From contig CM028326.1 of NCBI GenBank assembly GCA_016647705.1, forward strand, positions 17,113,901 to 17,177,900: a DNA stretch of 64,000 nt, written 5' to 3'. This document shows positions 18,140-50,239 of the stretch, piece by piece. The notes under the pieces were generated by a model, which saw nothing but the letters and a program-made list of their open reading frames with translations, was not told the DNA's origin and did no database searches. Numbering within the stretch: the stretch's first letter is position 1; every line of letters starts with the position of its first letter. The position numbers and the translations under genes are program-made. The stretch comes from Eucommia ulmoides. Lineage: Eukaryota; Streptophyta; Magnoliopsida; Garryales; Eucommiaceae.

Positions 18140-18874
18140 CTCTCTCTCTCTTAATTCCGCGTCCCCAATAAAAGTTGTAATTCAGCTACATAAAATATTA
18201 CGAGATCGAAAGGTGTTGCATGCCACATATTATATCTGAAAGGAGTGTTTGTCTTAAGTTCAAATAAATTATTAGTGAGTGGGTAGACCATCCAAAGAAT
18301 TCATGTTTCTTTATGCGTTTTCAGTTGACATTTCTAATTCTACTACTCGGTATCCATCGGGAAATAGATTATCATTATGACTCAAGCTGTTCCTTCGTGT
18401 CCACACCGTGTACACATTTCGTATGTGGGCCTCGGTCGGTATGTTTTTCTGCCAGATGGCAGCTTCTAGTACGTGCTGATGAGAAATATCCCTCGTCATA
18501 ATTGCAACATATGTGAATAATTGAATATGTGCTTCGAATACAATTTTTTTGGAGGAAAAATTAGCCGGTGCACTCATAATTAGCCTTAATCTATCAATAA
18601 AATCAGCTTATGATTTATCGAACAACGTAGTCCCTCGCCGGATTTACTGTGCACAAATCAATCCCAAATTCGCTTACCGTACATTTTTCGGTAATTGATT
18701 TGCCCCTCCGTTATACGCACAAATAATTTCTATTTTTAAATCCGGTTTTTCAGTTGTGAAAACACACTCTAAATACCAAATCATGACGATTTTTTTTTAA
18801 TATACATTGCATTTCGAATTTCAAAATCAAGAAATCATCGTGGACGCAGAGAGAACGATCGAATCAGAGCAGCT
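18140..18874. other. Spacer between the MYB relic and the MULE
   Basis: Contains the region upstream of the MYB relic (a CT run at 18140-18155) and the probable 5' end of the MULE. A minus-strand open frame of 88 codons at 18311-18577 resembles nothing I know and is not called. I could not identify a MULE terminal inverted repeat here. Confidence 0.4.
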
Positions 18875-19212
18875 ATGGAAAGGCAATTGATGTATCATTT
18901 CGAGCCGATCAACAACAGGTAATACACATCCTCATTTGATATATGCCAATCATAGTGATTTTACAGACATCTTAATATCAAGTTAGGGTTTTTCGATCGC
19001 AACGTGTATAAAGACCTAGTTTTTTGTTGATAAAGTTTTTGTTGTCGAACATACGTGTACGAAAATGCTTTACGAATGGATGATACAGTGTTTTTAGTTG
19101 TGGATCGACATATATAGTAATTTTTTGGATGATTCAGGTTGATTCACAAGCACACACGGTATATGCGAAATGAAATGCAGTACATAACGCACATAACGTT
19201 GTACATAGAGCA

Positions 19213-19554
19213 TGTTACATGTAACATAAGCATAATTGTTTGTTGATGTACATAATGTTGTACATATAGCGTGTTACATTCTTAGGGCGTGTTACATTTT
19301 TAACAAGAAAAATGTGCGTGTTACATGTAACATAAGCATAATTGTTTGTTGATGCACATAACGTTTGTACCTATAGCGTGTTACATTCTTAGGGCATGTT
19401 ACATTTTAACAAGGAAAAAAGGGCGTGTTACATGTAACAATAAACATAATTGTGTGTTGATGTTACATTGTAACATCTTTTTTTAAGAACGGAGGCGTGT
19501 TACATGTAACATCGATACATAATGGTGTGTTATATGGTGATATTACATGTAACA
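19213..19554. repeat. TGTTACATGTAACA cluster 1 (intron 1 of the transposase gene)
   Basis: Exact palindrome at 19213-19226, 19319-19332, 19426-19439 and 19498-19511. Near copies lie at 19461-19475 (one base longer) and 19541-19554 (one mismatch), with half sites (GTGTTACATT) in between. The spacing is roughly 70-105 bases, and units share flanks such as ATAAGCATAATTG and TAGGGCGTGTTACAT, so this cluster arose partly by local duplication. Confidence 0.92.
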
Positions 19555-20788
19555 AATTTATTTTTTGCAAAAGAGAGGGGGATCATGTGTTCTGATGGTT
19601 ATTGGTTGGGAGCATTTTTCGATTGCATGCATGTGCAAGTACGAGCGGGTGAATGCAGTTTTGAGGATTGCCAACAACAACAACATTAGTGATTTGTGTA
19701 ACAAGATTGTAAGCAAATAACCAAAATTAGCTAAGTCAAAATTTGACTTGTCATACGCATTGCATGGTCATTCTAACTGCATGCTTGCTGACTAAAGTGA
19801 CTATGAGGAGATGATGTTGCTAACAGATCATTAGAATATTGAGTTGTTGGATATATGCATCCAGAGAAGACTGAACAATTTTAGTGGATCGAATGGTACA
19901 TCAACAAGCGCCACTTCATTGTTAAATAGTAGCGAAGACAGCAAAGATGAACTTGACTACATAGGTAGTTACGGAAACATATTGCACCAGAGTAACGATA
20001 GGGTATTATTGTCATCTCAGTGGGCTAATGGGATCCAAAAGAAGGGTAAAAAATTTAGAGGCAGAACAAGCGAATTCTGGGATGTATTGAAAAGATATGC
20101 AATTGAGATTGGATTTAGTTTCTGTTATTTAAAAAACGACAAAGTGCGTGTGACAGCTGCATGTGCACTTAGAAAGGAAAAGAAATACCCATGATTTGTG
20201 CACGGACATGTAATGCGGGAAAATGGTATATTCTATATCCAAAATTTGGTAAACAAACACACATGTGGGTCTACACTCCGCAAAAACAAAAACAAACGAA
20301 TGAGCTCGGAGATTGTTTCTGGTTGTTTAACTGATGACGTACGGACAAACCCGAAAACGCTCCCTGTTGATGTAGTTGACAATTTCAAGAGGCAATATGG
20401 TATTGAGATCTCGTATAGCAACGCGTGGCTTGGTGTAGAAAAGGCCAGAAACAACGTGTTTGGGGATTATTCAACATCATATAACTAATTATGATGGTAT
20501 GTTGATAAATGTAGACAGACGAACCCTGGGAGTCATGTTACACTCGACTATGATGAGGACACAAGACATTTCAGACGTCTGTTTTTCGCATTCAAAGCAT
20601 GTATTTACGGTTTCTGCTTCTGCCGACCAATGGTGTTCCTTGATGGAACATTTCTTACCGGCCGATATAAAGAAAATTTATTAGCTAAGAAGGCAAAAGA
20701 TGGTAACCAAGGTCCTGTCAGTAAATGTTTTTCATATTTAGTGTATAGTACAACATTTTTTTTCCCTGACACTAAACACTTAAATGTA

Positions 20789-20823
20789 TGTTACATGTAA
20801 CAATATATTTTTTACATGTAACA
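20789..20823. repeat. TGTTACATGTAACA pair (intron 2 of the transposase gene)
   Basis: Exact copy at 20789-20802 and a one-mismatch copy at 20810-20823, inside the short intron (20712-20869) that splits the catalytic domain. Confidence 0.9.
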
Positions 20824-22122
20824 TATGTTTTATTGATTGAGATTTTTGTGATTGGGTTGATTTTCCAAGGATGTTCCCTATCGCTTTTGCAATTGTTGAT
20901 GCAGAAAATGATGAGAATTGGAATTGGTTTATGTCTGAGTTCAGAAAGATTGTTGCGGCAGATCTTGTGATCACGTTTATATCAGATCAGCATAATGGTA
21001 TATTAGAGGGAGTACGGAATATATTCTCACATTGCCACCATGCATACTGCCTATTGCATTTAAAGATAAATCTGAGGGCTGCAACGGCTGGGAGAAACAC
21101 CGCACTCAAGGAATTAATGATTCAAAAACTGAGCGGGTTGGTGTATGCACACACACCAGAAGTTTATAAAATGTTGTATGATAAGATAATGTATGATGGC
21201 GGAGAAAAAGTTCAGCGATTCATGCATGATCTTTCTGCAATGAAATTCAGTAACGTTTTTTTTTGGGAAAAACGCTATGGTGAAATGACATCAAATATGG
21301 AGGAATGTTTTAATTCTTGAATAAGTGAATATCTTCATTTGCCTGCATTATTATTGATTGACAAAATTAGAATACGGTGGATGGACTTAATGTCTGATAG
21401 GAGACAAGAATAAAAAAATATGGACGGTGAGATAACACTGTTTTGGGATAACAAGTTGTCCGATTTGATTAATGAAGGAAGAACATGGAATATCAGCTCG
21501 TTTGGCGATGGATTTTATGAAATTTATTCATCCCCATCAGCGCTAGTTGATACGCTGGGACGATTATGCTCGTGTAGACATTGGCAGATAAAGGGGTTCC
21601 CTTCCATACACGGTTGTGCAGCGATTAACAATGGTGCCTTGCCGACACATGATTAGATAGAAGGATACTTCAACGTCAATTTTTACCGTGAGACCTATTG
21701 GAGAGGAATATATGCAATCCCGACAATTAAACGACCTGTGTGGGTTGAGAGCGAAGCAATTATATTACCACCATTATCAAATAAGCAACCGAGTCGACCA
21801 AAGAAAGTAAGAATACCGTCAAGGGGTGAGATAAAAGAAAGAAAGTGTGGGAGATATGAAAAAATGGGGAGACACAACAGGAAGACATGCAAAGTCCCGT
21901 TGGTGTAAGACTGAGTTATATCGAGAAATTCCGTTTTTGGATTCGAGAGTAGACAGTTGAATTTCATTTTTTTTTTTAACAAAAACAGATTTTGTTATAT
22001 CTAGTCATTGACATTATATTCAAAAATGGAATAATAAATGTTTTGTTTGCATTCTATATTTTTTGTAATTGTGTTTGGTGAAGTCGTTGATGCTATTTTT
22101 TCAACACGACAATAATGTGATT

Positions 22123-22231
22123 TGTTACATGTAACATTATTTGTATTTTTAAACGTTTTTTTTTTTTCATTCAAAATAATGTTACATACAACATCAATGC
22201 AGTACTAAATATTGCATGTAACAATGTTACA
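22123..22231. repeat. TGTTACATGTAACA cluster between the two MULE genes
   Basis: Exact copy at 22123-22136, then degenerate copies at about 22173 (TGTTACATACAACA) and half-site pairs to 22231. The intergenic stretch 21909-22498 holds no gene. Confidence 0.85.
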
Positions 22232-23102
22232 TTTTATATAAGTCACGTAATAAAATGCGTAACATAGGATTACATCCCAAATTAAACCGTCATTTGATAA
22301 CTTGTCAGGGAAAAGATTTTTTTTTTTTTTTTAAATAATGTGTTTTGGTATTCACGTCTTATTAGCATAACCAATCCTCAGTTTGGGAAAGGAGAACCTT
22401 CCATATTCCCTAAACGATCGAAACCCTAACGTTCTGCAATGCTGTCGCCTATCATTGTCGGTCTCTGTAACCTTGATTTTTATATCAATTAGTTCACAAT
22501 GCTGTCTACACGGAGGAAGATGATCACTAAGAACCCCAATCTTGCGGATGATCCTGTCAACCTTTCCGACGCAGGTAAGATTGATGCAATTTTTTACGAC
22601 AATCTCAACTGTTTCGGTGTAGAAATCAGACGATAGGTCTTAGTCTACGCGTTCGGACTTGTAGTTTACATCATGCAACCGTATATTAAACATTTAGAAG
22701 TGGTAATTTTTAGTTGTTGTTGTGCGCGATAGAGTCCTGTTTTGCATATTACGTTTTGTGATTTTTACACATGATATTACGAATTTTTAGTGTAGCTGTA
22801 TATGTCCGGTGATTTCGCCATACAAGTACGTCAACATGATTTGGATCGATTTTTTTCGTGCGCAGTTACGTGATTTCGCGGTACATTATGATTTATCTAT
22901 TGTCGTGACAATACGCCAGTCACAAAGCACATATATTTGGTGCAAATCATTTTTTAGCGGATATTTGAATAACTGATGCTTAGTGTGTCAATGTTTATGT
23001 TATTTTGAATCACGTCTCTTGTTTATCTATGCTATAGTAGTGGGAGAAACAATTAAGTAGTACTTCATCTTTGACAATGTGTTTCAAAATTTTGTGCACA
23101 AA

Positions 23103-23399
23103 TGTTACATGTAACATTTCAGTTTATTATTGGTTTTGTGTACAAAAGTTTGATTATCTGTTGTTGGAAATATAACATCCATGCACGAAATGTAACACCA
23201 GTGTACTTCAAATTTGTCGATGTTTCAAATTTGTTCATAGATGTTACATGTAACATTTTCAGTTATTCTTTTTTTTTTCCTACAAAAGTTTTGATTTAGT
23301 TGTTGTTAGAAATGTAACATCAATACATGAAATGTAACATTAATGTACTTTCATTTTTTTCGATGTTTCAAAATTTGTTCACAGATGTTACATGTAACA
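23103..23399. repeat. TGTTACATGTAACA cluster (intron 1 of the Ulp1-type gene)
   Basis: Exact copies at 23103-23116, 23242-23255 and 23386-23399, about 140 bases apart. They sit in diverged repeat units that also share TACAAAAGTTTGAT and TTGTTGGAAAT-like flanks and single ATGTAACA half sites. Confidence 0.92.
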
Positions 23400-24849
23400 T
23401 TTCAGCTATTCTTGTTTTTGTATACAAAAAGTTTGATTATCTATTGTTGGAAAGAGAATTACAATGTAGGAAATGTAACATTTTTTGTCATGGGGCTTTA
23501 TGCATTAATATACATTGCGCAAATGACACATTACCTACCGTTGATGCTCATGACACACCAATAAGCGCAGCTGACATTGAGGATCGTAAAAAAAAAAAAA
23601 TTTACACAGTTCTTTTTTGCTTTATTTTCAGAAATTGGAACATTTTAGTATCTATTGATTTATGTGTCTTCTATTTCAGGGAAACATGTTCCAGATGTGC
23701 CAATAGCGTCAACAAGCAAAGCAGCAATAGGGACAACAAGCCAAGCCTCATCAGGACCGATCAAAAATCGATGTAACCTTTCACAAGTCTCATCCATCAT
23801 CCATGATTTACACCTATGTGATGAAAATATATTTTATTTACGTCGCACCCCATTTTGGAACACCATGAAAGCACTGATGAACTATCAAGATAATAAGGTT
23901 TCTTTCCATCGCATCGATACTCTGATCGTGAATATTATCTAGTGTTATCATCCATAGAAAAAAGCATTCAAACTGGGGCCACAATTCATGGAGTTCACAA
24001 GCCATGATGTGCAACTTATTTTTAGTTTGCCACACGATGAAGTACAATTGCCCGAAAGGTACACAAAGAAGGAAGACTATGTATTCCAAGCACGATAAGG
24101 TTTAAAGAAGAACAAGGTAAGTGTTGTACAGTTAAAGACCATGATATATGCGGCCATCAAACGCAAAGACGAAGAAAATATGAAAGATGTTGTTTGACTA
24201 TTGTGTATTCTTTTGTTGACAATCTGCTTCTTCAGTAATAAGGAGCAGTATGTTCGAGTATCAGACCTGAACATTGTCGAGGATTTGGATGTTATGGAAA
24301 CTTACAAGTAGGCTAACGCCATTCATTCAAATTTGATGTCATCAATCGAATCTGGGTATTAGAGATCGAGCTCTGTAATTGGATGTGTCATTGCTTTGCA
24401 GGTAATAACAACTGCATTAATTTTTGTAGTAATTCTGTATAATACATAAACTTTTCTACAAAATGTATTTGTTTGTTTTTTTTTCAGTTTTGGTTGTGCG
24501 AACACTCAAGGTTGATCCCGCCAGTGGCATCAAGAATGGTTGTAGTCCCTCGTTTTTTAAAATGGGACATGATGGAATTGACATCGATTGCTTCCAGATT
24601 AGATTTGAAAAATTTAAGTGTTGACCAGGTGTGTTTTGTTTTTCCTAGTTTTTTGAAACGGGATATGGAGACAACGATGTCGGCCGACCCTGGATTGCAC
24701 AATTTAACTACATATCACATGGTTTTTTTTTTATTGATGTACAAAAAATAATGTTAAATGTAATACAAATTGGTATGATGATTTTAACGAAAACGAAATT
24801 TGTTAAATGTAACACAATTTTTGTTACATTTAAAAACAAGGTACAAAAA

Positions 24850-24863
24850 TGTTACATGTAACA
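24850..24863. repeat. TGTTACATGTAACA single copy (intron of the Ulp1-type gene)
   Basis: Exact copy in the intron between the WLCEHSRLIPP exon and the coiled-coil exon. Degenerate half sites (TGTTAAATGTAACA and similar) precede it from about 24750. Confidence 0.9.
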
Positions 24864-26148
24864 CAATCGGGGATGGGGGGGTTGTTTTAGTGTATTTCTA
24901 ATATATAACATTTTTTTTGCACGTTTTTACTGATGAGTTTAGGTTATTCGGCGACTAACGTCAAAGTTAGTGTCAGAGCTCAAGGCAGGTGTCTTACTAC
25001 CTGTGCACGGTGACACAGAGATCAGTTCCTCCAATTCAAGTGCTAAGATTAAGGGAAAATAAGAGGTGTCTGTTGCTGACAATATGCCATCCTTAGATTT
25101 GTTAATATCGCAGCCATTTGATCAGGACGTTGTTAAATTTTCTGGAGGTTCATAAAATTTATCAGATCTTGTTAAAAGTAATCAGAAACTATTACAGAAG
25201 GTTGATAAGGTAAGGGCAAAGCGCAAGAAAATGAAGAGAAGAATGACAAAAGAGATTCAGCATCTGGAAGGTGAGATAGAGCGTATTGGTGATGAGAAAA
25301 ACCAATTGCTGACTGAGATAAAGAGGTTGATGGAAGAGAAAAAGAAAATAAATGAGAAGTTAGTAGAAGCCGAAGTTCACAATATTACGCAATAAGAGAG
25401 GATGGTGGAAAAGCTTGAAGAAGTTGTTGTGCATTCGGTAACATAGTCAGTAGAGAAAGAGAGGGAACATACTGAAAAAATGACTGGTCTGATAAAGTTT
25501 TACCAGTATGAGCTCGAAGACAAAGACAACATGATTGTCAAGTAAGCATCAATCATTGTTGCCTATAATTCACTGCCAAGGACGTCAATTCTAGCAAAAC
25601 TGAAGCTTAGGCGTGGTACGCATACAAAGGCTGAAACCAAGACACCAACTTCACTTGTAAAAAACATCAAGAGTCGCATTAGGACACAGAAGACTGATGA
25701 TGACTCAGTCCACAAAAATAATGTACTTGTCGAGAAACCGTGACCATTGAAGAAAAAGTATGATGTACCAATCCCTGATAAGCAAGGAACAGATGATGTT
25801 ATCAAGAGCAATGAGCAAAGTACATTGGTCTACAATGGCGATGAACCTCAAGAATTACCCCCACGCAACAGTGCAGTTGCAAGAATGATTGCAGACGATG
25901 ACTGGGACAAACTCAATATGGTTATATGGAAGGATGGACGTGGGTAAGTTTAAGTGTCAAATATGTTATTTAGAATGACGCACATGAGATGTACATCATT
26001 TTATTTTATTTTTCATTTTATTGCAGAGCATTTGTCTGGGGACCAGAATGGGTGTTCGCTCAAGTATCCATTCTTGATTTGATCAGGTTGTTATGGGAGA
26101 CTCAACTCCCAAATATTGTGAGTCACTATTTGTTATAACAAGCGAAAT

Positions 26149-26185
26149 GTTACATGTAAGATTTCATCTGTGATGTTACATGTAA
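26149..26185. repeat. TGTTACATGTAACA pair disrupted by the solo LTR
   Basis: A near copy at 26149-26162 and the first twelve bases of an exact copy at 26174-26185. The LTR begins at 26186. The missing CA and the usual downstream CATT-CAG flank reappear at 35900 after the duplicated target (TGTAA at 26181-26185, TATAA at 35895-35899). Confidence 0.88.
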
Positions 26186-26708
26186 TGTAAGACCCTAATT
26201 TTCGTAGGTGCATATTCATTAGCCGCATTTTAGAACATTTAGAAAATAACGGGGTGGAATATGTCATTTCTAATTTAAATTAAAAGTTTAGGGGTCAATT
26301 AGCAATTTTAAAAATGTTCATTTTAAATTTTGGGATTGAAATAATAACCTAAAGAAAATTGAGGGGAGGTTAATGTAATTTGGGAAAAATTAATTTATAT
26401 ATATATGCATACACACTAATGGGATCAAAAACCAAAAACAAAAAGGAAGAAGGAGGGACGATGTGGCTTCACAAGGGATCAATGAATACCACTATTATCA
26501 TGCATATATATAGATTCATGCATGTTTTTCACAATCCCAACATCTAAAAAGAAGAAGAAGAAACCAGAAAAATAGAAAGAAAGAGATGTGGGTCAGAGGC
26601 GGTGGTGTGTTCGGTTCTGTCGTCCGGCGGCCGGTGAGAATGTATGAGGGTGTGTGTATCGTATGTGTGTATGTGACCATCGGGGGGGGGGTAGCATCAC
26701 CGTTCGGG

Positions 26709-28177
26709 GTGAGACAAGTCGCTACTTACTCTCGCAAGTATACGAGATCTAAGTTTTAATATAGTGGATCTTGAAGATCGGATATCGTTCCCACAGAGAA
26801 AAGTGTGAATAATTGAATACCGCAATTTACGTAGTCTCATGTTATCCTGACGATGGAAGACATGATTTAAAACTAAACTAAACTAAACTACAATTAGTGG
26901 GTTAATCCAAACTAAGTTCATTAATTAGGGATTGATTTCGTTCACTTAATACATGTTTGATTTCGTTCAGTTAACAATAACGGAGTTTAGGTATCGGATA
27001 ATCTCGTTTCGTAAAATCCTCCGCCACCTCTTCCGAGTGTAAGACGGGAGAATACGTGACTTCATGTCGACGAAGAGGTCCTCCTCAATGTCTTAACGAC
27101 TTTAGGATGCGTGAGGCTTGACCTAACGTCATCGATTGCACACTAACTAACGCCCTCCAGAGTCGTTAGGTCGTAACGATGTGTTTATCCTATTCTGAAT
27201 CCAGAGTTACCTCTCCCGAGTGTCAAACCCTAGATTCTCAAATCCAAACCTAATACCATTACAAGCATACTAAGATTGTCATCAAATTATAAACACAATC
27301 GGACTTAAAAGCAACAACCGTTAAAGAAACGTATATTAAACTAAACGAGTATTTACACAACTACATCTTTCCCTGACTAATCTCTAATTACACTAACATG
27401 TTCTTAGCCAATACAACATTAAATTAAGAGGAGATCATCAATATCAACAATAAACATTAAATACAAAGATGGAAACAAGGGAAGAAAAGCCAAATCTCAA
27501 AGTGGAGTAGTCCACTTTCGCCAAAGAACAATCCTCCCGAGCTTCCTCTTCTCTATTGATGAACTTCCTCTTCTAGCTCTTCAAGGATTGGCCAATAACA
27601 CCTCCTAAACTAATCTAATCTACTTCCTAAATTTTCTAAACCTAACTAAGGTGGAAGGAGCTCTCAAAATGTCAACCAAGCCTCCTTTCACGTCTAAGGG
27701 TTTTTTTTAGGTTTGGTGGAGAAAGGGGTTAAAAAGTGGGATTTGGAAAATATCTTCAAAATATCTAAAAATAGATATTTCTGTGCAGAGTATCACCGCC
27801 TAAGCGGTGGTTCACTGCTTAGGCGGTGGCTTAAGTCGGTTAATCTTCTGTCGGATCTTCGCCTAGGCGGTGGTTTCTCTGCCTAGGCGGTGGCTGCTGG
27901 CATAACATTCTGTCATTTTCTCACCTAGACGATGGTTCAACCCTTCAGCACTCCAACATTCTGCCACTTTTCTGCCTAGGCGGTGGTCTTCATTCACCGA
28001 GACTCTGTTTTTCACATTTTGTTCACCGTTTCTCCACCATTTTCACTTGTTTATCGCCCTTTAACGTCCCTTCACCTGTTTTACACTAAAACAAACTAAA
28101 ACACAATTAAATATAACTAAAATGCTTGAAAACTAACAAATTCAGTTTAGAAATAGATAGGTTTTTCACACCTATCA
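26709..28177 (-). repeat. 3' LTR of the Athila-like element
   Basis: From GTGAGACAAGTCGCTACTTA to CACACCTATCA. The terminal TGATAAGGAC of the partner LTR (32576) is replaced here by CCGTTCGGGG-like flank sequence. The CCGCCTAGGCGG cluster lies at 27790-27990. Confidence 0.85.
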
Positions 28178-28193
28178 ATACCCCCAAACTTAG
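28178..28193 (-). other. Polypurine tract
   Basis: The minus strand reads CTAAGTTTGGGGGTAT directly before the 3' LTR start TGATAGG. This is the usual plus-strand priming tract of Athila-type elements. Confidence 0.85.
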
Positions 28194-29949
28194 AATTTTG
28201 CTAGTCCTCGAGCAAAACACTAACACTAAACTAAACTAACTAACGAACTAACCAACTAAAAATGAAAAATTAAACTAACACGAAAGAAGTATATGCATGT
28301 AAATATAAAGTTCAATCGAAATGACCAATTTGTTCCTCTCTCAGCATCCATAAATCAGATCAAGTTCGGGAGGTAACCCATACCAAGTGGTGTTCTAGAA
28401 TTTCAACAATCAATAACAATAAAAACCATTCTAGATCCATTTGAAGTGTGTGTGACAACTCAAATGTGTAACTAGTCAAATACCAGATTCAATTATTCAA
28501 TTGTTAAGCTCATAACTTAAACCGTTGAAGGATTCAGGAAAACCATACTTTTGATTGGAGTCTACTATCCACTAATGTAGGCCCGGATATTCATAGAGAT
28601 CAATAGGGCTTGGTTTCACTTTGGAGAACGACCATGGGTATCATTGGAATTGAAAAAAGCAAATCGTTTTAATTGAATGATACCCAAGGTAAAATCGCTT
28701 ATCGCTATCCTCTCTCATGACCCCACATTCTTAGGATACAATTATGAATAAGAAATGAAGATCGTGTGTATTCACTTGTCGAAAGAAAAGAAAATGAAAA
28801 CTATATTCACCTTCTTTTTTTTTTTTAACAACATATTCCTAAATTAATTCGAATTATTACAGTTTTAGGAGAGTGCAAAAAGAAGTTAGAGAAACACACC
28901 CCCAAACTTATTTGAATTTATAAAATTTTAGGAATATGTAAAAAGAAATGATAGAAACACACCCCAAAACTTATTTTAGGAGCGTGCAAAAAGAAATACG
29001 AAAGTGACAAGTGAATACACTAATACCGAATCAATAAAAATTTATCAGAAACCCGACCGCTCACTTGATTTCTCTCAATTTTGAAAATTAGGCTTAGCGA
29101 CTTTGGTTTAGGAAAAATTTAAATGAAAAGAGTATTTGAACGTTTTCCAAATTGATTACATTATCGGTTTCCACAGGGAAAATAAGGAATGAAAATTTTC
29201 AGGTTAGCTTCAACGGTTCAAGCGAAAAATTGACGGCCTAAATCACGTCTCCGAAATTACCTTACCTAGGATTCCGCCTCAAGTTTTCCCCAAATCAAGT
29301 TCTAGTCTCCTCATTTTCTATCATGAGCTTAATATGGAATAATCAGCGTCTAATTGTTCAGATAATTATACATTGAGTTCAAATGTCGTGCGATTTTAGG
29401 ATCGAGATTATTTTTACCCAATCGACATGTTAAGCACACAAAACACACAAGGAAGGTATTACCCCCGACCTCAATATGCAATTAGGGGATAATTCTCATC
29501 ATCGGGTCTTGGCCCAAATGAACTCAACATCTAATCATGCAAACACATCTTCATACATACACAATTCCAAACTAAATCTAATACTAACATACATAGTTTA
29601 ATCTAACACTAAACATGCAAAAACAAAAATTAAGCTAAACTAAACTAACAATTTAAAAACTAAAACATTTATAACAAAATACATACATAAACATAGATTT
29701 GTACATAAACAAATTTGCATTCTGTTCAAAAAAAATAATAATGGTTCATCATTTTCTATAAAAAATTAAAATGGATGAACATCCACTAAACTATCATCCA
29801 TTCCATACCATCCAGGCCTGAACATGGCAGTGTTCCAACATCAGCGAACCCAATAAACATATAGCATACATGCAAACAAAACAGGTTGAACACATACCTA
29901 GAGAATAAGACTTATTCCCTACTATTCACCTGAAGAGGAATCATCACCG
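28194..29949 (-). other. 3' non-coding region of the Athila-like element
   Basis: No coding sequence. It contains repeated AACACACCCCCAAACTTATTT-like segments (28890-28990), each resembling a degenerate polypurine tract, and is the counterpart of 4141-5560. Confidence 0.6.
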
Positions 29950-31065
29950 TCATCACGTTGGAAAGGAGAGTGTGGTCTCTAGAGCAGATGTGGCGGCACA
30001 GATGGCATCGAAGGGTAATCGTCCATCTCAAGGCCAAGGCCATCCCAAATCTTCCATTGGACTCAATCTTGCTTCCTCAAAAATTGGTCCAGGAAAGAAG
30101 CGATCTCATATTGATTTTGGAGGACGATCTGAAGCTTATTATTTATCCTCTCCGGGGAGTTTTCATCTCAGGCTCCAAAAGGTCCCGCTGTCTCATCTAT
30201 TGACTCTTACCCTTCTCCAGACTCGGGCTCGGCTGCCTCTTGAGCCCCAGTCTTCCACAAGCGGTTTATCTTTGACAGATCAAGTGGAATGATAGGGTCG
30301 CATAGGCTTCCCTTAGATACCGTCACTCCAGAAAGTTGGAAAATATGGGTCAATAGTGATAGAAATGGGAGCCCACCCTTTACCGTTTTCCTAGCATGTA
30401 TGATCGATGAATAGATTAGAAATCCAACATTGATTGGTTCTCCGATTTGAATTTTTGTAGATCAGATAGGTCCTGTCCTTTGAGACGTCTGAAAGATGCG
30501 ACATCGATAGGAGGCTTCCACAAATGAAGTGGTGCCAGATTTTTGGAATTGGCTTTAGGCATTTCATCAAGAAGGTAGTGACATTTGGCCCTTGGTGTTT
30601 CCACTTTACTTGGCCAGATGTGATCTTTTGAATGACCCTATGCAAAGTAGGTTCTTGGCTTTCAAGGGACTCCGGTGCCGAAAGTCCAAAGAGATGATTG
30701 ATAAAGTCTGGGCTGAAGATAATAGGCTGATTTTGAACCCTTGTTTGGTCGTCTACGGCCTCCGTAGAATTAGCATAGAATTCTTTGACTAAAGCAACCT
30801 CGCCTGGGTGTGGCGATATACAAAATTGCTCCCAATGGTGGCTTTGGATTTCTTGTTGAAATTCCGCCGGGAGATCCTCAATCGGACCGAAACCCCATTG
30901 ACGTATGCAGGCACAATATTTTTTATGTTCTTTGAAGTGCTCATCTACTTGTTTTGACACAAAACAGGTGGCATCATAGTCAACGTCGGTCGGCACCCCG
31001 GGGTGTGAACTCGACCCTTCTCCTCTCGCCCTCTTCTTTGCTACCCTCTTTGGAATTTCCTAATA
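29950..31065 (-). pseudogene. Transposase_32-type ORF of the non-autonomous Athila-like element
   Basis: Aligned to the copy at 1-499, the start codon ATG has become ATT (about 31055). The frame then gives KRVAKKRARGEGSS, ATCFVSKQVDEHF, IRQWGFGPIEDLP, EVALVKEFYANS and FSPDFINHLFGLSAPESL. A frameshift in an A run near 30435 switches frame to KIQIGEPINVGFLIYSSIIH and LPFLSLLTHIFQLSGVTVSK, followed by a charged tail with several stops down to about 29950. This fits the putative plant transposon protein family, whose function is unknown to me. Finding the same domain in two copies with the same downstream order shows it is the sole gene of this element family. Confidence 0.65.
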
Positions 31066-32551
31066 ATCACAATCACAAAAAAACCAATACAATCTCATCA
31101 TATATGCACAATTGAAAACCATAAACCTCCCTAATTACTTTGTCAAGAACACATACATCCCAAAACGAACACCCATTTGATTTTTTCAAACAAATTTCAC
31201 AAATGTGACATCCTATCTTAGTTCACATACTCAACCAATGCAATTAAACATGCTCATTACCAAGAATCAAACCAAAAACCCATGGAACTTCGGAATCGCA
31301 AAAATAGGGTTAAGGGGTTTTGGGCAAAATTTCAAAATTCAATGATTTCTTTGATATAATCATGCAAACCAACTAATAATTTCAAAAACTAGACTAAATG
31401 TAAAGTAAAATAAAGTTACTTGTTGAGAATTAATGGTCCAATCGAAAGAGAATGAAGAAATCGCACCGTTCACGGAAAACCCTAAATTTTCGAAAATAGG
31501 GGTGGAGATCCAATTCTTGGAGGTTGAATCGTGATAGAAATTACTACTTTTCATAATGGAAGGATGATTTTGGAGTATTAGAACGGTTTGGAAGTGAGGT
31601 TTTAGAGAGAATGTGGAGGATTTTTGGGGAGGGAACCTTGCGATTTCAATTTTGAACGAATGGGTTCTTTTTAACTGCAGAAGGTCCACTGCTTAGGTGG
31701 TGGAGCCCTTTTCTTTAAAATCAAACCTTCGAACGAAATTCCGCCTAGGCAGTGGTTTTTCCGCCTAAGAGAAATTACACCAGTGTGAAAACATTTTATT
31801 CTGCTACTAATCCTCCTAGGCGGTGGTTTCTCCGCCTAAGCAGTGGAGCGTATTTTCAAAATTTGTTGCATCCTGTATTTTTACCGCCTCACCGCTTAGG
31901 CGGTGGGCCGTTTTTTCTAAAAAACACACAACCTGTATTTTTATCGCCTAAGCTGTGGTTCACCGCTTAGGCGGTGGGCCTGCATCTCCTACTTTTTTGT
32001 TTTTCTCAAATTTTCAAAATACGGCTCCACCCCGTACGTTTTCACTTCGCTTGTTCAACGTGTTTAAACTTAAAATACTTCCCCAAGCGTCCATACTCCT
32101 AAATTCAATTCTGAATGCGTTTCGAAGCCATACTGGCTTCCAAAAAGAATAAATAATCAAATAAACAGTGACAAAAATCGGGTAATTTGATACCCTAAGT
32201 TTCATTTCAAAAAACCAAATGTAGCGCTTGAGTTACCGTCCCTAGCTAGCCTTTCGTGTTACTAAGTATTTTTCACCAAAATTCCCCATAGACAAGGAAT
32301 TTGGGCTCAAATGCTCAGTAGGATCAAGATCATGGCTTAAAGTCGGCTTCTCCTCTCAGTCCTTATCATTTGCAATAAGTTCAATCTCGGGATTGAGAAT
32401 TAAGAATTCCAATCTTCTTCATCGTTTCTTACACTGCTTGATCTCATTAACACAATGAAACAAAAATTAAAATTAAAAACAAAACAAAAATAAATGTCAA
32501 AATTAACACTCGACCACTTAGTCGCAATATCAACTTAAAATTCACACTAAT
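31066..32551 (-). other. Leader of the Athila-like element with CCGCCTAGGCGG-type motifs
   Basis: Non-coding. Eight or so copies of the motif (CCGCCTAGGCAGTGG, CCGCTTAGGCGGTGG and variants) cluster at 31685-31985, so the motif occurs in both the LTRs and the leader of one element. Confidence 0.7.
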
Positions 32552-32569
32552 TCCCCGGCAACGGCGCCA
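32552..32569 (-). other. Primer binding site, perfect tRNA-Asp match
   Basis: The plus strand reads TCCCCGGCAACGGCGCCA, identical to the 3' end of plant tRNA-Asp as I know it. The LTR edge is at 32576. Confidence 0.88.
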
Positions 32570-32575
32570 AAAACT

Positions 32576-34064
32576 TGATAAGGACGTGAAACACGCCGCT
32601 ACTTACTCTCGCAAGCATACAAGGTCTAAGTTTTAATATAGTGGATCTTGAATATCGGATATCGTTCCCACAGAGAAAAGTGTGAATAATTGAATACCGC
32701 AATTTACGTAGTCTCATGTTATCCTGACGATGGAAGACATGATTTAAAATTAAACTAAGCTAAACTATAATTAGTGGGTTAATCCTAACTAAGTTTATTA
32801 ATTAGGTATTGATTTCGTTCACTTAATACATGTTTGATTTCGTTTAGTTAACAATAACGGAGTTTAGGTATCCGACAATCTCGGTTCGTAAACTCCTCCG
32901 CCACCTCTTCCGAGTGTAAGACGGGGGAATACACGACTTCGTGTCGACGAAGAGGTCCCCCTCAATGTCTTAAAAACTCTAGGATGCGTGAGTCTTGACC
33001 CAACATCATCGATTGCACACTAACTAACGCCCTCCAGGATCGTTAGGTCGTAACGATGTGTTTACCCTATTCTGAATCCAGTGTTACCTCTCCCAAGTGT
33101 CAAACCCTAGATTCTCAAATCCAACCCTAATACCATTAAAAGCATACTAAGATCGTCATCAAATGATAAACACAATCGGACTTCAAAGCAACAACTGTTA
33201 AAGAAACGTATATTAAACTAAACGAGTATTTACACAACTACATCTTTCCCTGACTAATCTCTAATTACACTAACATGTTCTTATCCAATACAACATTAAA
33301 TCAAGAGGATATCATCAATATCAACAATAAACATTAAATACAAAGATGAAAACAAGGGAAGAAAAGCCAAATCTCAAAGTGGAGTAGTCCACTTTCGCCA
33401 AAGAACAATCCTCCCGAGCTTCCTCTTCTCTATTGATGAACTTCCTCTTCTATATCTTCAAGGATTGTCCAAGAACACCTCCTAAACTAATCCAATCTAC
33501 TTCCTAAATTTTCTAAACCTAACTAAGGTGGAAGGAGCTCTCAAAATGTCAACCAAGCCTCTTCTCACTTCTAAAGGTTTTTATTGAGGTTTAGTGGAGA
33601 AAAGGTTTAAAAAGTGGGATTTGGAAAATATCTTCAAAATATCTAAAAATAGATATTTCTATTTAGAGTATCGTCGCTTAAGCGGTGGTTTACCGCTTAG
33701 GCTGTGGCTTAAGTCGGTTAAGCTTCTGTCGGATCTTCACCTAGGTGGTGGTTTCTCTGCCTAAACGGTGGCTGCTAGCATAACATTCTGTGATTTTCTC
33801 GCCTAGGCGGTGGTTCAGCCCTTCTGCACTCCAGCATTCTGCTTCTTTTCCGCCTAGGCAATGGAACTTCCGCCTAGGCAGTAGTCTTCATTCACCGAAA
33901 CCCTGTTTTTCATATTTTATTCACTGTTTTCACTTGTTTATCGTCTTTTAACATCCCTTCACCTGTTTTACACTAAGACAAGCTAAAACACAATTAAATA
34001 TAACTAAAACGCTTGAAAACTAACAAATTCGGTTTAGAAATAGATAGGTTTTTCACACCTATCA
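32576..34064 (-). repeat. 5' LTR of the Athila-like element
   Basis: 1489 bp from TGATAAGGACGTG to CACACCTATCA, giving near-inverted ends TGATAGG and CCTTATCA. The motif cluster lies at 33665-33880. Confidence 0.88.
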
Positions 34065-35160
34065 GTGGCCATCATTGGAGGGGGGCTTACATCGCCATTC
34101 GAGGTGTGTTTCATCATGTATGTATGATCGTTGTGTGCGGGTATGTGTGTTCTGTTCCGTTTCGTCACCGGTGTGAGTATGTGTGGGTGGGTTCTATTTA
34201 CCGGCGGAGTGTGGAGGTGATCGGTAGGTGCATATGTGTGGTTAGTTGAGTGTGTTATGTTCTATTTCCTTATTTGTGCATGTGTGTGTGCTGTTCATCG
34301 TCGATTGCGTGGGTGTGTGTGTGATCAATCGTCGTTCGCCGACGTCCATGTGGGTGTTTAATCGTCGTTGGTAGTCCGGCGATGTGTGTGTGTCTTCTGT
34401 GATAGTGTATGTGTATGTTTCAACATGTATGTGTGAGTGTGTGCTCTGATCGTGAGGAATGGACGGCGAGTGAGATCGTTGGAGCTGGTGAGGATAAAGA
34501 GAGAGAGGCGGCCGGCTGCTAAAACTAGGAAACAGAACAGAAAAAGGGGAGCGTTCACTGCAGCGGTGAGGTTCAGCAAAGCAGGAAAACAAAAATCCAA
34601 AAATCCAATTTCTCGGCCTGCAAGCGATTCGAAACAGGTAAACTTTTAATCGGGTATTATTATCAATTAAATTAAATTGTTAAGTATTAAATTTTTTGCA
34701 ATCGTAATAGTAATTCTCGTAATCGTGATAGTATATTTATAATCGTTAATCTTAATAAATTGGTACAGTAAATATTAACATAATGGAATGATGTAAATAG
34801 TAATTTTGGCATAATTAAATTTAGGGAAGGGGAAATAATACCACTTAGGGCCATGCATTGCATATTAGGTTATTTTAAATAAAATATTAATTTAGGCCTA
34901 TCATTATTAGGTTCACAGGCGCTAGCGTCCCGGTAGGTTTTGGACGGTGATATTTTTGTAGTGCGAAAATCGAGGTGAGTGTACAGTCTTCTATGTAAAT
35001 TTACAAATCTTATTTTTGTATAAATTGTGGGAAATGCGTTTATTTAAAATAGACAATTTTGTAACTTATATGGATCAAGTTGACTTTGGTTTTAAAAGGT
35101 GGAAAATGATTTTTTGATCAAGTGGGTTTTAAATGTGATTTTTGTCCAACTATGCCATAG

Positions 35161-35322
35161 TTTTTCTTCTCATTAGATGGGTATGACCTACGAGATGTGG
35201 ATTTTCTTCTCGTTAGGTGGGTATGACCTACGAGATGTGAATTTTGTTCTCATTAGGCAGATATGACCTACGAGATGTGGATTTTCTTCTCGTTAGGCAG
35301 ATATGTCCTGCGAGATGTAGAT
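35161..35322 (+). repeat. Four 40-base tandem repeats in the solo LTR
   Basis: The unit is TTCTCGTTAGGTGGGTATGA plus CCTACGAGATGTGGATTT, repeated four times at exactly 40-base spacing with a few substitutions. A diverged set occurs in reverse orientation at 63410-63570. Confidence 0.85.
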
Positions 35323-35912
35323 TACCTGTTAAGCAAGTCTTGGAGGGTGGATTGACCTATCAGGAGTGCAAATCCTGCAGGTAGTACCCCTACTATGGAG
35401 GATAATTAATGGCCTTGGCACTGATAGTCACTTTAGAAGGCACATTTGTACAGGTTATAGTACCGTTGCAACTCCCGATCGTAAGGTAAAAACGATCATA
35501 TGGCTAGTAGGAAAGTGGTGTGGAGTATTTTATTATACGATGAACTGCCTGAATTGATTTGACCTAGATATATTATTTTAAAATGGATTAGCATCAATAT
35601 ATTATTTTATTGCACTAGTTGATTTAAAATATTTGAATTGAGTGTTTTAAATATATGAGTTATTTAAGTGGTGACAAGAAAACTGGATTTTCGTACGGTA
35701 TTTGATTATATAATATTATATTTTTGGAAATAAGTAAAAGGTATTATTTTTTTGAGAAAAAAATATTGACAGCGATACGCGTGCGTCTGAGTTTGTATGT
35801 ATATATATGTATGTGTTTGGTTAGTTGGTCAGGAAGTGTCATGCCGACATCAAGCCCTGTCTCGGGTGACAGGTGCCCGGTGTAGGGTGTGACATATAAC
35901 ATTCAGGTGTAA

Positions 35913-36012
35913 TGTTACATGTAACATTTGATAGTTTACTTACAGCCCGCGATATTTTTTGCAATGTCACATGTAGCGTAACAAAGCCTAAAAATGTATG
36001 TTACATGTAACA
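35913..36012. repeat. TGTTACATGTAACA pair after the solo LTR
   Basis: Exact copies at 35913-35926 and 35999-36012, with a degenerate one between (about 35966). They belong to the same intron as 26149-26185 before the LTR inserted. Confidence 0.9.
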
Positions 36013-36110
36013 TGCAACACGATTGTCATGTTACTTACACGTTCTGTGTTTATTTAGAAATATGCAGATGATTATAACATTATGTAGGTGATTAATAAAA
36101 CATTTTTTAG

Positions 36111-37020
36111 GTTATCAACGGATGTATGGATATGATATGTCTTGATCAAGCAAGGGTTGCAAGTGATTTAAAAGGGATTGGTCATGATTTGCCAAATCGA
36201 TCATATTTTATCAATAATTGTTGCTGGGTAATCAAACTGTTACATTGTTTTTTATATTTTTTTAGTGTGTTTTTATGTTTTTTGTTTGATTTGCATGCAC
36301 ACATTGCATGTTACTAATTTTTTGAAAAGTTTTACAATATATACAGTTTTAGATTACACAGGGGGGCAAGAAAGTATTGGCTGACAATCTTAACCCAAAA
36401 ATTATAGAAGCATTTTCCGACAACTATTGATTCGTGTATTTTCCAATAAATACTGTAGGATTGACATCATCAATGGGACATTGGACACTACTTGTTTGTG
36501 ATAAGCAGGAGCAAAAGTGGACACACTACAATTCGATCAACCTACGACGTCCCGGAGATGTTGATAGATTTTATGAGAATGCAAAAAGACTTGTGAGTTT
36601 CAATACATAGTTTTGAAGCTTTTGTTGCCAGTGCAATGTCGAATGAATAATCCTCACTATTTTTTTCCATGTTCAAATGTAGGTTCGTTATGTTGATGCA
36701 TTATTGTCAAAGGAAGCTAGTGAATATCAACTGTTGGATGCTAAAATTTCAAACTCAAATAATGTGCAAGATTAGGGATCATCTGTGTAGGTGCACTTCA
36801 TTTATTACTAATTAATTATGTTACCTAAACACAACCAGTTATTGATGAATTCTCTTAACATATTATATTTCGCAGCGTTGATTGCGGTGTTACTATAATC
36901 CATGTTATGAAGAGCATATTCAACAATGTACAAATCAACCTTAATTACGGCATTGAAGGTTTTAGAAGAGAAAGAGCAGCACTCGTGCATGAATTCTTCA
37001 ATGATCCACCAAGATCTTAG
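36111..37020 (+). pseudogene. KAONASHI-type gene, 3' part: Ulp1 (C48) cysteine protease domain
   Basis: Exons 36111-36227 (MDMICLDQARVASDLKGIGH), 36362-36592, 36683-36786 and 36876-37020 join in one frame with GT-AG introns. GHWTLLVCDKQEQKWTHYNS carries the catalytic His; the Asp of the usual YDS is Asn here. GSS followed by VDCGVTIIHVMKSIF carries the catalytic Cys after a Gln-Asp pair (VQD) that fits the oxyanion Gln. The family cleaves SUMO or related modifiers. The protein ends LVHEFFNDPPRS. Two stops, TGA in DNY*FVYF and TAG after VQD, plus the Asp-to-Asn change, predict no activity. It is separated from its 5' half only by the nested LTR in the intron 26118-36110. Confidence 0.85.
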
Positions 37021-37354
37021 ATTTTAGATGACTTCCAAACAAGAAAAAATAACGAAACACGTCGTGTTGAAGAAGCATAGAACAACTGGAAAATTAGAGT
37101 TTTGATGTGTCTAGATTAGAACAAATTGCTTTTCAATCTATCTTTGTTTGATTTAAACATCATACATAGCTATATTTCATTTTTTATGAAAGGTATAATT
37201 GGTATGGTTGTTTGTGTTGTGTAAAATGCAACACAACTATTTTTGGATGCACGAACTATTATTTTGGTGGGTTGACACTTCTTTGCAACATTTGGGTTGC
37301 ATCTCAGAGACACGAACCGGAAAAAACTGACAAATTTAAGAACTACCGATTGAA

Positions 37355-37745
37355 TGTAACATGTAACATTTTCCAAATACAATCACATTCTTAGTTTCAA
37401 AATGTATGTTACATGTATCATTGTCATGGACACACATACTCAGTAATATTTACATGGATGTTACATGTAACATTTTATAATTCCACACACCCTGGATATG
37501 GAATTATTGGCATGAACACAACGTGCAAATGTTACATGTAACATGAATGAAATCATTGTCATGGACACATACTCAGTAATGTTACATGGATGTTACATGT
37601 AACATTATTTTTTTGCACACCATGGATATGTATGCAACATTTTAACAGATATTACATGTAACATTGAAAATGTTACATGCAACATGATTATAAAATGGAT
37701 GGCATGAATTTTTTACACAAGTATTTTTAAATGTTACATGTAACA
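37355..37745. repeat. TGTTACATGTAACA cluster downstream of the Ulp1-type gene
   Basis: Exact copies at 37459-37472, 37530-37543, 37591-37604 and 37732-37745. Near copies lie at 37355-37368, 37407-37420, 37650-37663 and 37671-37684. This is the densest group in the window. Some units share CATGGACACACATACTCAGT flanks and so are local duplicates. Confidence 0.92.
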
Positions 37746-37760
37746 TCAGTTACATCAAGT

Positions 37761-38978
37761 AAAAAATCTCCAAAAAATGCGATTAGCACCTCATTTCGAA
37801 GAGAATCAAACGCACATAATTTAGTGTTTCAATATTTATGTTTTTTCATATGGAAATATGAGATAAAAATGATACAAAGTGTCCACCATATATTGAAATC
37901 GTTACCATATTTAGATCCCCGAAAAACAAGGGAGGTTAAGCGAGATTTCGGGGATGTTCAGCGTGAGGCGCGACAGTAGGGGCATTCTCGTCACTGAAAT
38001 GGCAAAAAGATTAGGCAGTTCAAGAAAATGTGAGAAGGTTTAATTGGTAGTTTCTTGCGCCTTTTAGGACTGTTCGGTCACCGCCCCGTTTTCTTGTTCA
38101 GAAAATTAGCCGACAAACACATATCAAGGTTTAAATTACCAATTAATATCAACTATTCTAAATTAAATCATCTAATCTCATTAACTTGACTTTTTGAACT
38201 GTTTAGTCCCAAATTCGAAAATTCTGAAATTTTCATGACTAAAATAACCTTGCAAGATTTACGGGAATTAGAATTTCCCTTATTAAACAGTTTTATCAAT
38301 AAAAAATAATTTCCACAAATAACAAGAGTTTTTTCATTTTTCAATTCCTTTCAAAATTAAAAAATAAAAATTGTTTCCACAAATAACAACAAAGGAGAAT
38401 TTCTTTTTCATTTTCACTTTTTCTATATTCAGTTAATGTTATATTCAATACCTGGTAAAAAAATTGAAAGATTTTGATAGTGTGAGACACGGAACATGTG
38501 TATCATCATAGAGAACAAATGATATATTCAACATACACACAAATATGTCAAATATGATTTGGTATTTTGCGAAAGAGATATACCACATTTTTAACAAACG
38601 ATCATGTTGTATGTAACACCAATATTCAAACATAACACTGTATTTTCTCGCATTTGTAATGTATACCAATGTTGATTATAACACCAACACAAAATATGGG
38701 AGATTTTAATCAAGTGGGATAGCGGAACATGTGAAATGATTTCAAATAGTAAATGTTATATTCAACACTCACGCAACTAAAAAGGGTACGATCTAATGCA
38801 TCGTGGAATAAATATATACAGTTAACTAGCACATATTGTAGCGATGTTATATATAACATTAATATCACAGTTAATTTTATATATAACATTCACAGTTAAT
38901 TCATGTTGAATGTAAAATGGATTTTAATCTAGAATTCTAAAAAAATTATTACTATCTCATTTAATGAGCATGATTTAT
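37761..38978. other. Region after the MULE, with degenerate TGTTA...TAACA dyads
   Basis: No gene supported. From 38430 to 38900 several loose dyads occur (TGTTGTATGTAACA near 38604, TGTTATATTCAACA near 38755, TGTTATATATAACA near 38845). They may be an eroded outer part of the MULE or of a related one. Confidence 0.4.
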
Positions 38979-38983
38979 AGATC

Positions 38984-39364
38984 TGTTGGGGGAAATTACT
39001 TATAATTGTATAAATACAAATTAAATAATAAATAAATCTCAAAGTAAATTTCAATATTTTTAAATAACTAAAAACATCAAGAATTAAATAAATAAAATAA
39101 AATTATAGAATAGAGAGAAAATACATATCTAGCAGATCAAGACGTGTAAACATTGTCCTAAAAAGAGATACGCCTCATCTATGCATAGGGTTGAATGGAG
39201 AGCCCTTCCCAAAATACAACAATCTAGGGAGTCAAGGTGCAAGTAGGACATCCCTATATTGAACCGATAGCTAACCCTATTGTCCGTAAATCATCAAGTA
39301 ACTAATATATGAAAATATAATATAATATTATTTCTCTATCTCAATAGTATCATACTCACAATAT

Positions 39365-50141: not shown

Positions 50142-50239
50142 GCCTGTGAAAACAACACATTACAAGAATGAACAAATAACCAACAACAAATAGATTTCAG
50201 CCTGCAAAAAAAAAAAACCCAACAATAAACAAGTTTTAA

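Follow-up and report, generated by a model that had tools for sequence, protein, structure and literature searches.

Which protein, if any, reads a short palindrome that recurs throughout the non-coding DNA of a single transposon? The question is raised by a stretch of 64,000 nucleotides of Eucommia ulmoides DNA (assembly GCA_016647705.1, contig CM028326.1, positions 17,113,901 to 17,177,900; hereafter the window), in which 16 exact copies of the 14-bp word TGTTACATGTAACA all belong to the non-coding part of a single decayed Mutator-like element (MULE). A first-pass annotation had regarded the array as a recognition system for a protein encoded by the element itself. We consider it somewhat probable that the array consists of family-specific 14-bp inverted-repeat sites to which a dimer of the protein encoded by the second gene of the MULE (gene 2) would likely bind, thereby lifting silencing in the manner of the VANC proteins of Arabidopsis VANDAL elements.

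The palindrome array of the window

All 16 exact copies that had been listed (starting at 19213, 19319, 19426, 19498, 20789, 22123, 23103, 23242, 23386, 24850, 35913, 35999, 37459, 37530, 37591 and 37732) were found again, and the window total with up to two mismatches is 34 matches, against 0.52 expected. No exact copy is present in the rest of the 64-kb window and none arose in 100 dinucleotide shuffles of it. The earlier statement that the word occurs nowhere else in the window therefore holds for exact copies but not for copies with two mismatches, three of which (38605, 38845 and 62182) lie beyond the array. Exact and single-mismatch copies together number 24 in the 9.6 kb of MULE sequence, 0 in the 44.7 kb outside it and 0 in a 9.7-kb insertion within the element, and the half-site word TGTTACAT occurs 57 times in the same 9.6 kb of the MULE versus once in the remaining 54.4 kb. 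AT runs aside, the window has no further perfect palindrome of 14 bp that is present more than twice.

The exons of both MULE genes were drawn by eye from the reading frames and are backed by a relative (L147+L154) in which the matches follow in the same order. None of the 31 array copies (up to two mismatches) overlaps these exons, as had been claimed, and the exons amount to 4,901 bp compared with 4,698 bp of non-coding DNA. The copies occupy 7 of the 14 non-coding intervals, and the seven empty intervals are all short (62-176 bp). Intron 1 of the transposase gene contains four exact copies and one with a single mismatch (19213-19554), partly arranged in tandem units of ~107 bp, and intron 2 holds one exact and one single-mismatch copy (20789-20823). 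One exact copy and two with two mismatches are located between the two genes (22123-22223). Intron 1 of gene 2 features three exact copies in tandem units of ~140 bp (23103-23399), and a further intron of this gene one exact, one single-mismatch and two two-mismatch copies (24752-24863). Another intron of gene 2 is interrupted by the insertion; one single-mismatch copy and the left part of a split copy are found to the left of it (26148-26185), and the remainder of the split copy together with two exact copies to the right (35895-36012). The downstream array (37355-37745) comprises four exact and four single-mismatch copies. As the first-pass annotation had correctly recognised, an insertion of the long terminal repeat (LTR) type interrupts the copy at 26174. 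This insertion has TG...CA ends (26186-35894) and does not belong to the MULE; a relative without this insertion carries an intact exact palindrome at the corresponding site. The LTR pair of a nested element within the insertion (26709-28177 and 32586-34064) is 91.4% identical.

The word could have spread passively, by tandem duplication and amplification of the element, without having any function. Some copies indeed lie in the mentioned ~107- and ~140-bp units, the count is multiplied by short copies of the element, and an estimate based on the 91.4% LTR pair predicts that about half of the 14-mers would still be intact under neutral decay from the time of this insertion onwards, which is near the 16 of 31 found. 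However, flank identity is below 0.45 in 260 of the 276 pairs of window copies, and the cores are better conserved than their surroundings. Within the window, the information content is 1.0-2.3 bits per position in the 14 core positions and at most 0.63 outside, but the core values are inflated by the picking of copies according to their match to TGTTACATGTAACA. For this reason a comparison of paralogues was used, in which the columns under the exact copies of the window were compared with their flanks. The mismatch amounted to 6/168 in the core versus 44/462 in the flank for L147+L154 (Fisher 0.008), 5/126 versus 63/318 for L146 (5e-6), 0/68 versus 28/171 for L148 (4e-5) and 4/112 versus 62/360 for L145 (6e-5). 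Overall, cores differ at 0-4% and flanks at 10-20% of the positions, the core value being 2.6 to 5 times below that of the flank and zero in one paralogue, in agreement with the expectation that the motif is conserved above its flanks. The part compared includes 12 exact sites of the window, of which all 12 were aligned in L147+L154, 9 in L146, 4 in L148 and 8 in L145; three of the 12 are located beyond the 4.7-kb stretches taken from the latter three relatives.

Some properties of the array did not add to this picture. A helical periodicity of dyad spacing was suggested by the window (p 0.014-0.027 for periods of 10.0-10.5 bp; 0.15-0.18 when only distinct spacings were counted) and failed with 221 spacings (p 0.07-0.32 for the same periods). 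A period of 12 (p 0.0065 with 221 spacings), one among 11 periods tried, is unexplained. A purine is present at position -3 of the dyad in 22 of 24 window copies, which are not independent of each other.

Half-site classes across the genome

Each site is a dyad of two facing 7-bp half-sites, for which we use the designations A (TGTTACA) and B (TGTTGAA). The pairing is A-A in the clade of the window element and A-B (TGTTACATTCAACA) in its sister clade, and B-B constitutes a third type of array. In the Eucommia ulmoides assembly (947 Mb, 391 contigs), with the reversed word as control, the exact A-A word occurs 6,566 times versus 2 for its reverse, which is also a palindrome of equal composition. 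The A-B word is found 16,912 times versus 15, and the B-B palindrome TGTTGAATTCAACA 1,634 times versus 1. To characterise A-A sites, the first 20 occurrences listed for contig 1 were examined with 9.9 kb of sequence round each, a non-random sample. All 20 form one group by DNA similarity round the word. The assumption that the array is specific to an element of the Ulp1-carrying MULE type is supported, the genome-wide enrichment being very large. Neither gene was detected in 18 of these loci, a piece of gene 2 in L135 and both genes in L136; elements longer than 9.9 kb could extend past the sampled sequence. Five copies with both ends measure 1.2-1.7 kb and keep ends and dyads, which identifies them as short non-autonomous members of the family. 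More than one exact dyad type was present in 7 of the 20 loci (L128, L132, L133, L135, L136, L142 and L144), some of which may contain more than one element in the 9.9-kb stretch; we therefore call the dyad types largely separate and not exclusive. Three hand-picked B-B clusters contained three exact B-B sites each and no exact A-A or A-B site, and no coding match was found within 4 kb of them. Viral contigs showed a chance background, with one copy in 118 and two copies in 2 of the 120 loci listed, and a protein search for transposase relatives in viral contigs gave none.

The change of site type can be followed along the transposase. A first look at the genome yielded 3,168 transposase candidates, of which 150 were scored. 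For eight of them a stretch of 4.7 kb was fetched: the four ranking directly behind the window copy, and four chosen from a group at 68-69% identity. The four close relatives (L145-L148) contain 10, 14, 5 and 8 exact A-A palindromes, and all dyads in them lie outside the transposase exons as defined by tblastn. No exact A-A palindrome was present in the four relatives at 68-69%, one of which holds a single-mismatch copy; the most frequent 14-mers in these four are TGTTACATTCAACA and the same word shifted by one base. In the A-A set, where palindromes were counted on both strands, TGTTACAT is followed directly by GTAACA in 122 of 216 cases; in the A-B set, it is followed by TCAACA in 26 of 53. 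The four A-B loci L149-L152 also contain six copies of another variant, TGTTACATTCCACA.

For a systematic sample, another 20 transposases (600 bp each) were drawn at even intervals from ranks up to 98 among the 150 scored, with ranks 99-150 and the unscored candidates outside this range. Together with the earlier eight, intron 2 was read in 28 relatives, and all 28 carry a dyad with up to two mismatches in this intron. The 20 relatives with at least 72% amino acid identity all have A-A dyads, exact in 13, and the eight with at most 69% all have A-B dyads, exact in 5. L160 additionally shows one B-B-like match with two mismatches upstream, and four of the eight A-B relatives (L149, L168, L171 and L173) also possess an A-A-like dyad with one or two mismatches. 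The 7,580 bp of transposase exon from the 28 relatives contain no dyad. In a tree of 29 transposase pieces, which covers the A-A and A-B classes, the dyad label changes twice compared to a mean of ~7 after shuffling, and none of 500 shuffles was as low. Seven A-B rows form a single branch (100/100); L168, which has two dyads, one of each kind, groups with L167 among the A-A rows. No transposase of the B-B class was found, and no search was aimed at one. The motif is thus kept in close relatives and altered in the sister clade. The two outcomes that the first-pass annotation had named as speaking against it, an equal frequency of the motif outside these MULEs and its loss from related intact elements that keep other non-coding sequence, were not seen in the loci sampled. 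Retention of a dyad in one short intron by 28 of 28 relatives also argues against passive spread without function, which is already disfavoured and which we regard as highly improbable.

Two further explanations have to be considered in the light of these data. The dyads could represent binding sites of the transposase, serving transposition or self-regulation, and non-autonomous copies would keep them in order to move. Such a function would be in line with the dyad type following the transposase tree and with the five measured short copies, which retain both ends and dyads at a length of 1.2-1.7 kb. In the full element, however, the dyads are scattered among seven non-coding intervals, at kilobase distances from the ends, and are not concentrated near the termini, and we consider this explanation unlikely. 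Still less likely, in our opinion, is that the elements exploit the sites of a host transcription or chromatin factor. Dimeric factors of plants commonly recognise palindromic sites and the dyads are located in introns and upstream DNA, but the clade-wise switch from A-A to A-B within one genome would be unexplained unless two such factors were used.

The MULE, its two genes and its neighbours

The decayed MULE extends from ~18553 to 38087 on the plus strand, its ends (5' AGGAAAAATTAGCC, 3' GGTCACCGCCCC) having been determined by comparison with the short relatives. Its target duplication matches at 6 of 9 positions; among five relatives with both ends found, three have a 9-bp duplication that matches at 9/9, and the other two score 8/9 and 7/9. 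No long inverted repeat was seen between the flanks of the MULE, and the first 12 letters of its two ends, read by eye, agree at 7 of 12 positions. Terminal inverted repeats hence appear absent or degenerate, as in the non-TIR (terminal inverted repeat) elements of the VANDAL type. Gene 1, the transposase (18876-21913, plus strand; exons 18876-18919, 19575-20712 and 20855-21913), contains in-frame stops. It gives a Pfam MULE match above the cut-off (5.6e-14) and matches to DBD_Tnp_Mut (1.6e-4) and SWIM (0.067) that are both below it. Database proteins matching gene 1 number 58, the best being from Camellia and Rhododendron at ~37-40% identity.

Gene 2 (22502-37080, plus strand), also with in-frame stops, comprises an N-terminal part, a helical stretch and an Ulp1-type C-terminus. 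The first-pass annotation had described its product as a DUF1985/Ulp1-type protein. The Ulp1 part of this description stood (Peptidase_C48, 5.9e-7), but DUF1985 was not detected by Pfam profile search in the window copy, and in the N-terminal part of a relative (L153) it is weak (E 0.0014) and below the cut-off. A Plant mobile domain match in the N-terminal part of a relative (0.0049) is likewise below the cut-off. The Ulp1-type exons (36352-37080, plus strand) encode the His and Cys residues, and Asn is present at the position of the catalytic Asp of SENP8 in all four copies read (window, L154, L149 and L136), in an SENP8 alignment that is itself weak (E 0.19). Protease activity of this part is uncertain because of the replacement of the catalytic Asp. 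For 79 codons of gene 2 (25156-25392, plus strand), AlphaFold2 run on the single sequence predicts a single helix of 77 residues (mean pLDDT, the confidence score of the program, 97.7), and a heptad pattern test gave p 0.001 over 79 residues and 0.057 over 129. This helix is possibly a dimerisation coil. No protein relatives of gene 2 were found at E 1e-3 or E 1 in a search that requires shared 5-letter words and may thus miss relatives of a fast-changing gene. The Ulp1 gene has the orientation of the transposase gene in the window and in L147+L154. In contrast to these A-A elements, it lies tail to tail with the transposase gene in the A-B elements L136 and L149, and gene orientation and dyad type have thus changed between the same clades.

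Downstream of the MULE, the segment 38089-38146 resembles the 5' end of the element at 18544-18601 (65%, with the shared 11-mer AAAATTAGCCG), and the segments 38741-38776 and 38829-38893 match the short copies L135, L138 and L144. A second, short related element containing the two-mismatch dyads at 38605 and 38845 may therefore be situated just past the 3' end (window 38100-39000). Another MULE-type transposase is encoded at 47480-50159 on the minus strand (SWIM 4.2e-8, DBD_Tnp_Mut 8.4e-9); this stretch contains no dyad with up to two mismatches and serves as a negative control. The word CCGCCTAGGC occurs 16 times across 1166-33870 of the window, in part inside the inserted LTR-type element, and is the commonest word in L177.

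Candidate binder and relation to known systems

A motif that is repeated, non-coding, conserved and changes together with the genes of the element is best read as an address for an element-encoded protein, and its inverted dyad form points to a dimer. We infer that the protein of the second gene would bind the dyads, that it would do so as a dimer, that binding would remove silencing from its own element, as VANC proteins do, and that exchange of a half-site would make sister clades differ in their target.

For VANDAL elements, the short motifs bound by VANC21 and VANC6 are described as lying within tandem repeats of non-coding DNA and as varying from one related family to another (PMC5735166). 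As in VANDAL21 (Hiun) with VANC21 and VANDAL6 with VANC6 of Arabidopsis, the motif of the present element recurs within introns, in the DNA separating the genes and in non-coding terminal regions, is often part of tandem repeats and is different in related families, and the second gene is more variable than the transposase (PMC5735166). The VANDAL21 and VANDAL6 motifs given in that text (YAGTATTAY, AGTTGTCC/AGTTGTAC) are non-palindromic and in one orientation, in contrast to the inverted 14-bp dyad of the present element and its half-site classes; binding and demethylation were demonstrated for those elements (PMC5735166) and are presumed for the present one. An Ulp1-type domain in the second MULE gene is shared with KAONASHI (KI) MULEs and with Ulp1-carrying VANC genes, which reportedly target the motifs of their own kind (PMC13317346, PMC2528002). 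A review describes such genes as acting on their own kind and places the capture of Ulp1 at the time when monocots and eudicots separated (PMC13317346). The designation as KAONASHI-type MULE, made at first pass, is correct with respect to the Ulp1-type domain. The reverse orientation of the Ulp1 gene relative to the transposase that characterises KAONASHI is, however, absent from the window and from L147+L154 and present in L136 and L149, and the replacement of the catalytic Asp by Asn, seen in all four copies read, is another difference to this group. The CACTA system offers a further parallel, in which transposition proteins such as TNPA bind subterminal repeats near the termini. It resembles the present array in having a repeated short motif within the element that is likely bound by an element protein, but the dyads described here are spread through introns and intergenic DNA.

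A full-text literature search with the 14-mer, with the 12 letters at its core and with the A-B word retrieved two papers on tobacco small RNAs and nothing on transposons. Sasaki et al. 2022 (EMBO J) is said to be the main paper on Ulp1-type VANCs and reportedly surveyed such motifs; a palindromic motif may thus already have been published there. The motif was not found in the accessible text of the literature on VANC, VANDAL, DUF1985, Kaonashi, anti-silencing and palindromes (including PMC10398659, PMC2528002 and PMC6446971). The 14-mer is part of a 21-nt small RNA from tobacco, ATTGTTACATGTAACACTGGC (PMC3237444, PMC3306195); we take this as a probable coincidence because the sister sequences of this RNA break the palindrome.

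Several points weigh against a gene-2 dimer as the reader of the array. In the window copy neither gene is intact, in-frame stops being present in each, DUF1985 is missing in this copy and below the cut-off in L153, and 13 isolated half-sites (TGTTACAT) in the MULE indicate that the full dyad is not kept everywhere. The excess of core conservation is modest in the nearest relative, and concerted evolution could be another way to homogenise the copies. Mixed dyad types in 7 of the 20 sampled loci mean that the types are not strictly separate. The transposase, being linked to gene 2, would fit the tree equally well, and the VANC motifs given in PMC5735166 are not palindromic. Despite these points we continue to favour, with the reserve expressed above, an address read by a dimer of the gene-2 protein. 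As a more tentative extension, about which we are rather doubtful, A-A, A-B and B-B could constitute a combinatorial code of largely separate addresses for dimeric anti-silencing proteins encoded by the elements, in which new specificities arise via the asymmetric A-B intermediate by exchange of one half-site at a time.

VANC-type anti-silencing as such is already known; the difference from the motifs given in PMC5735166 lies in the palindromic dyad and its three half-site combinations. These bear on how targets are recognised by proteins of the VANC type and on the joint evolution of protein and motif. If our reading is true, the three half-site combinations with their ~25,000 exact sites would represent a natural series that has retained the intermediate stage of a change in specificity, and motif-addressed self-recognition of transposons would extend to a palindromic, presumably dimeric form.

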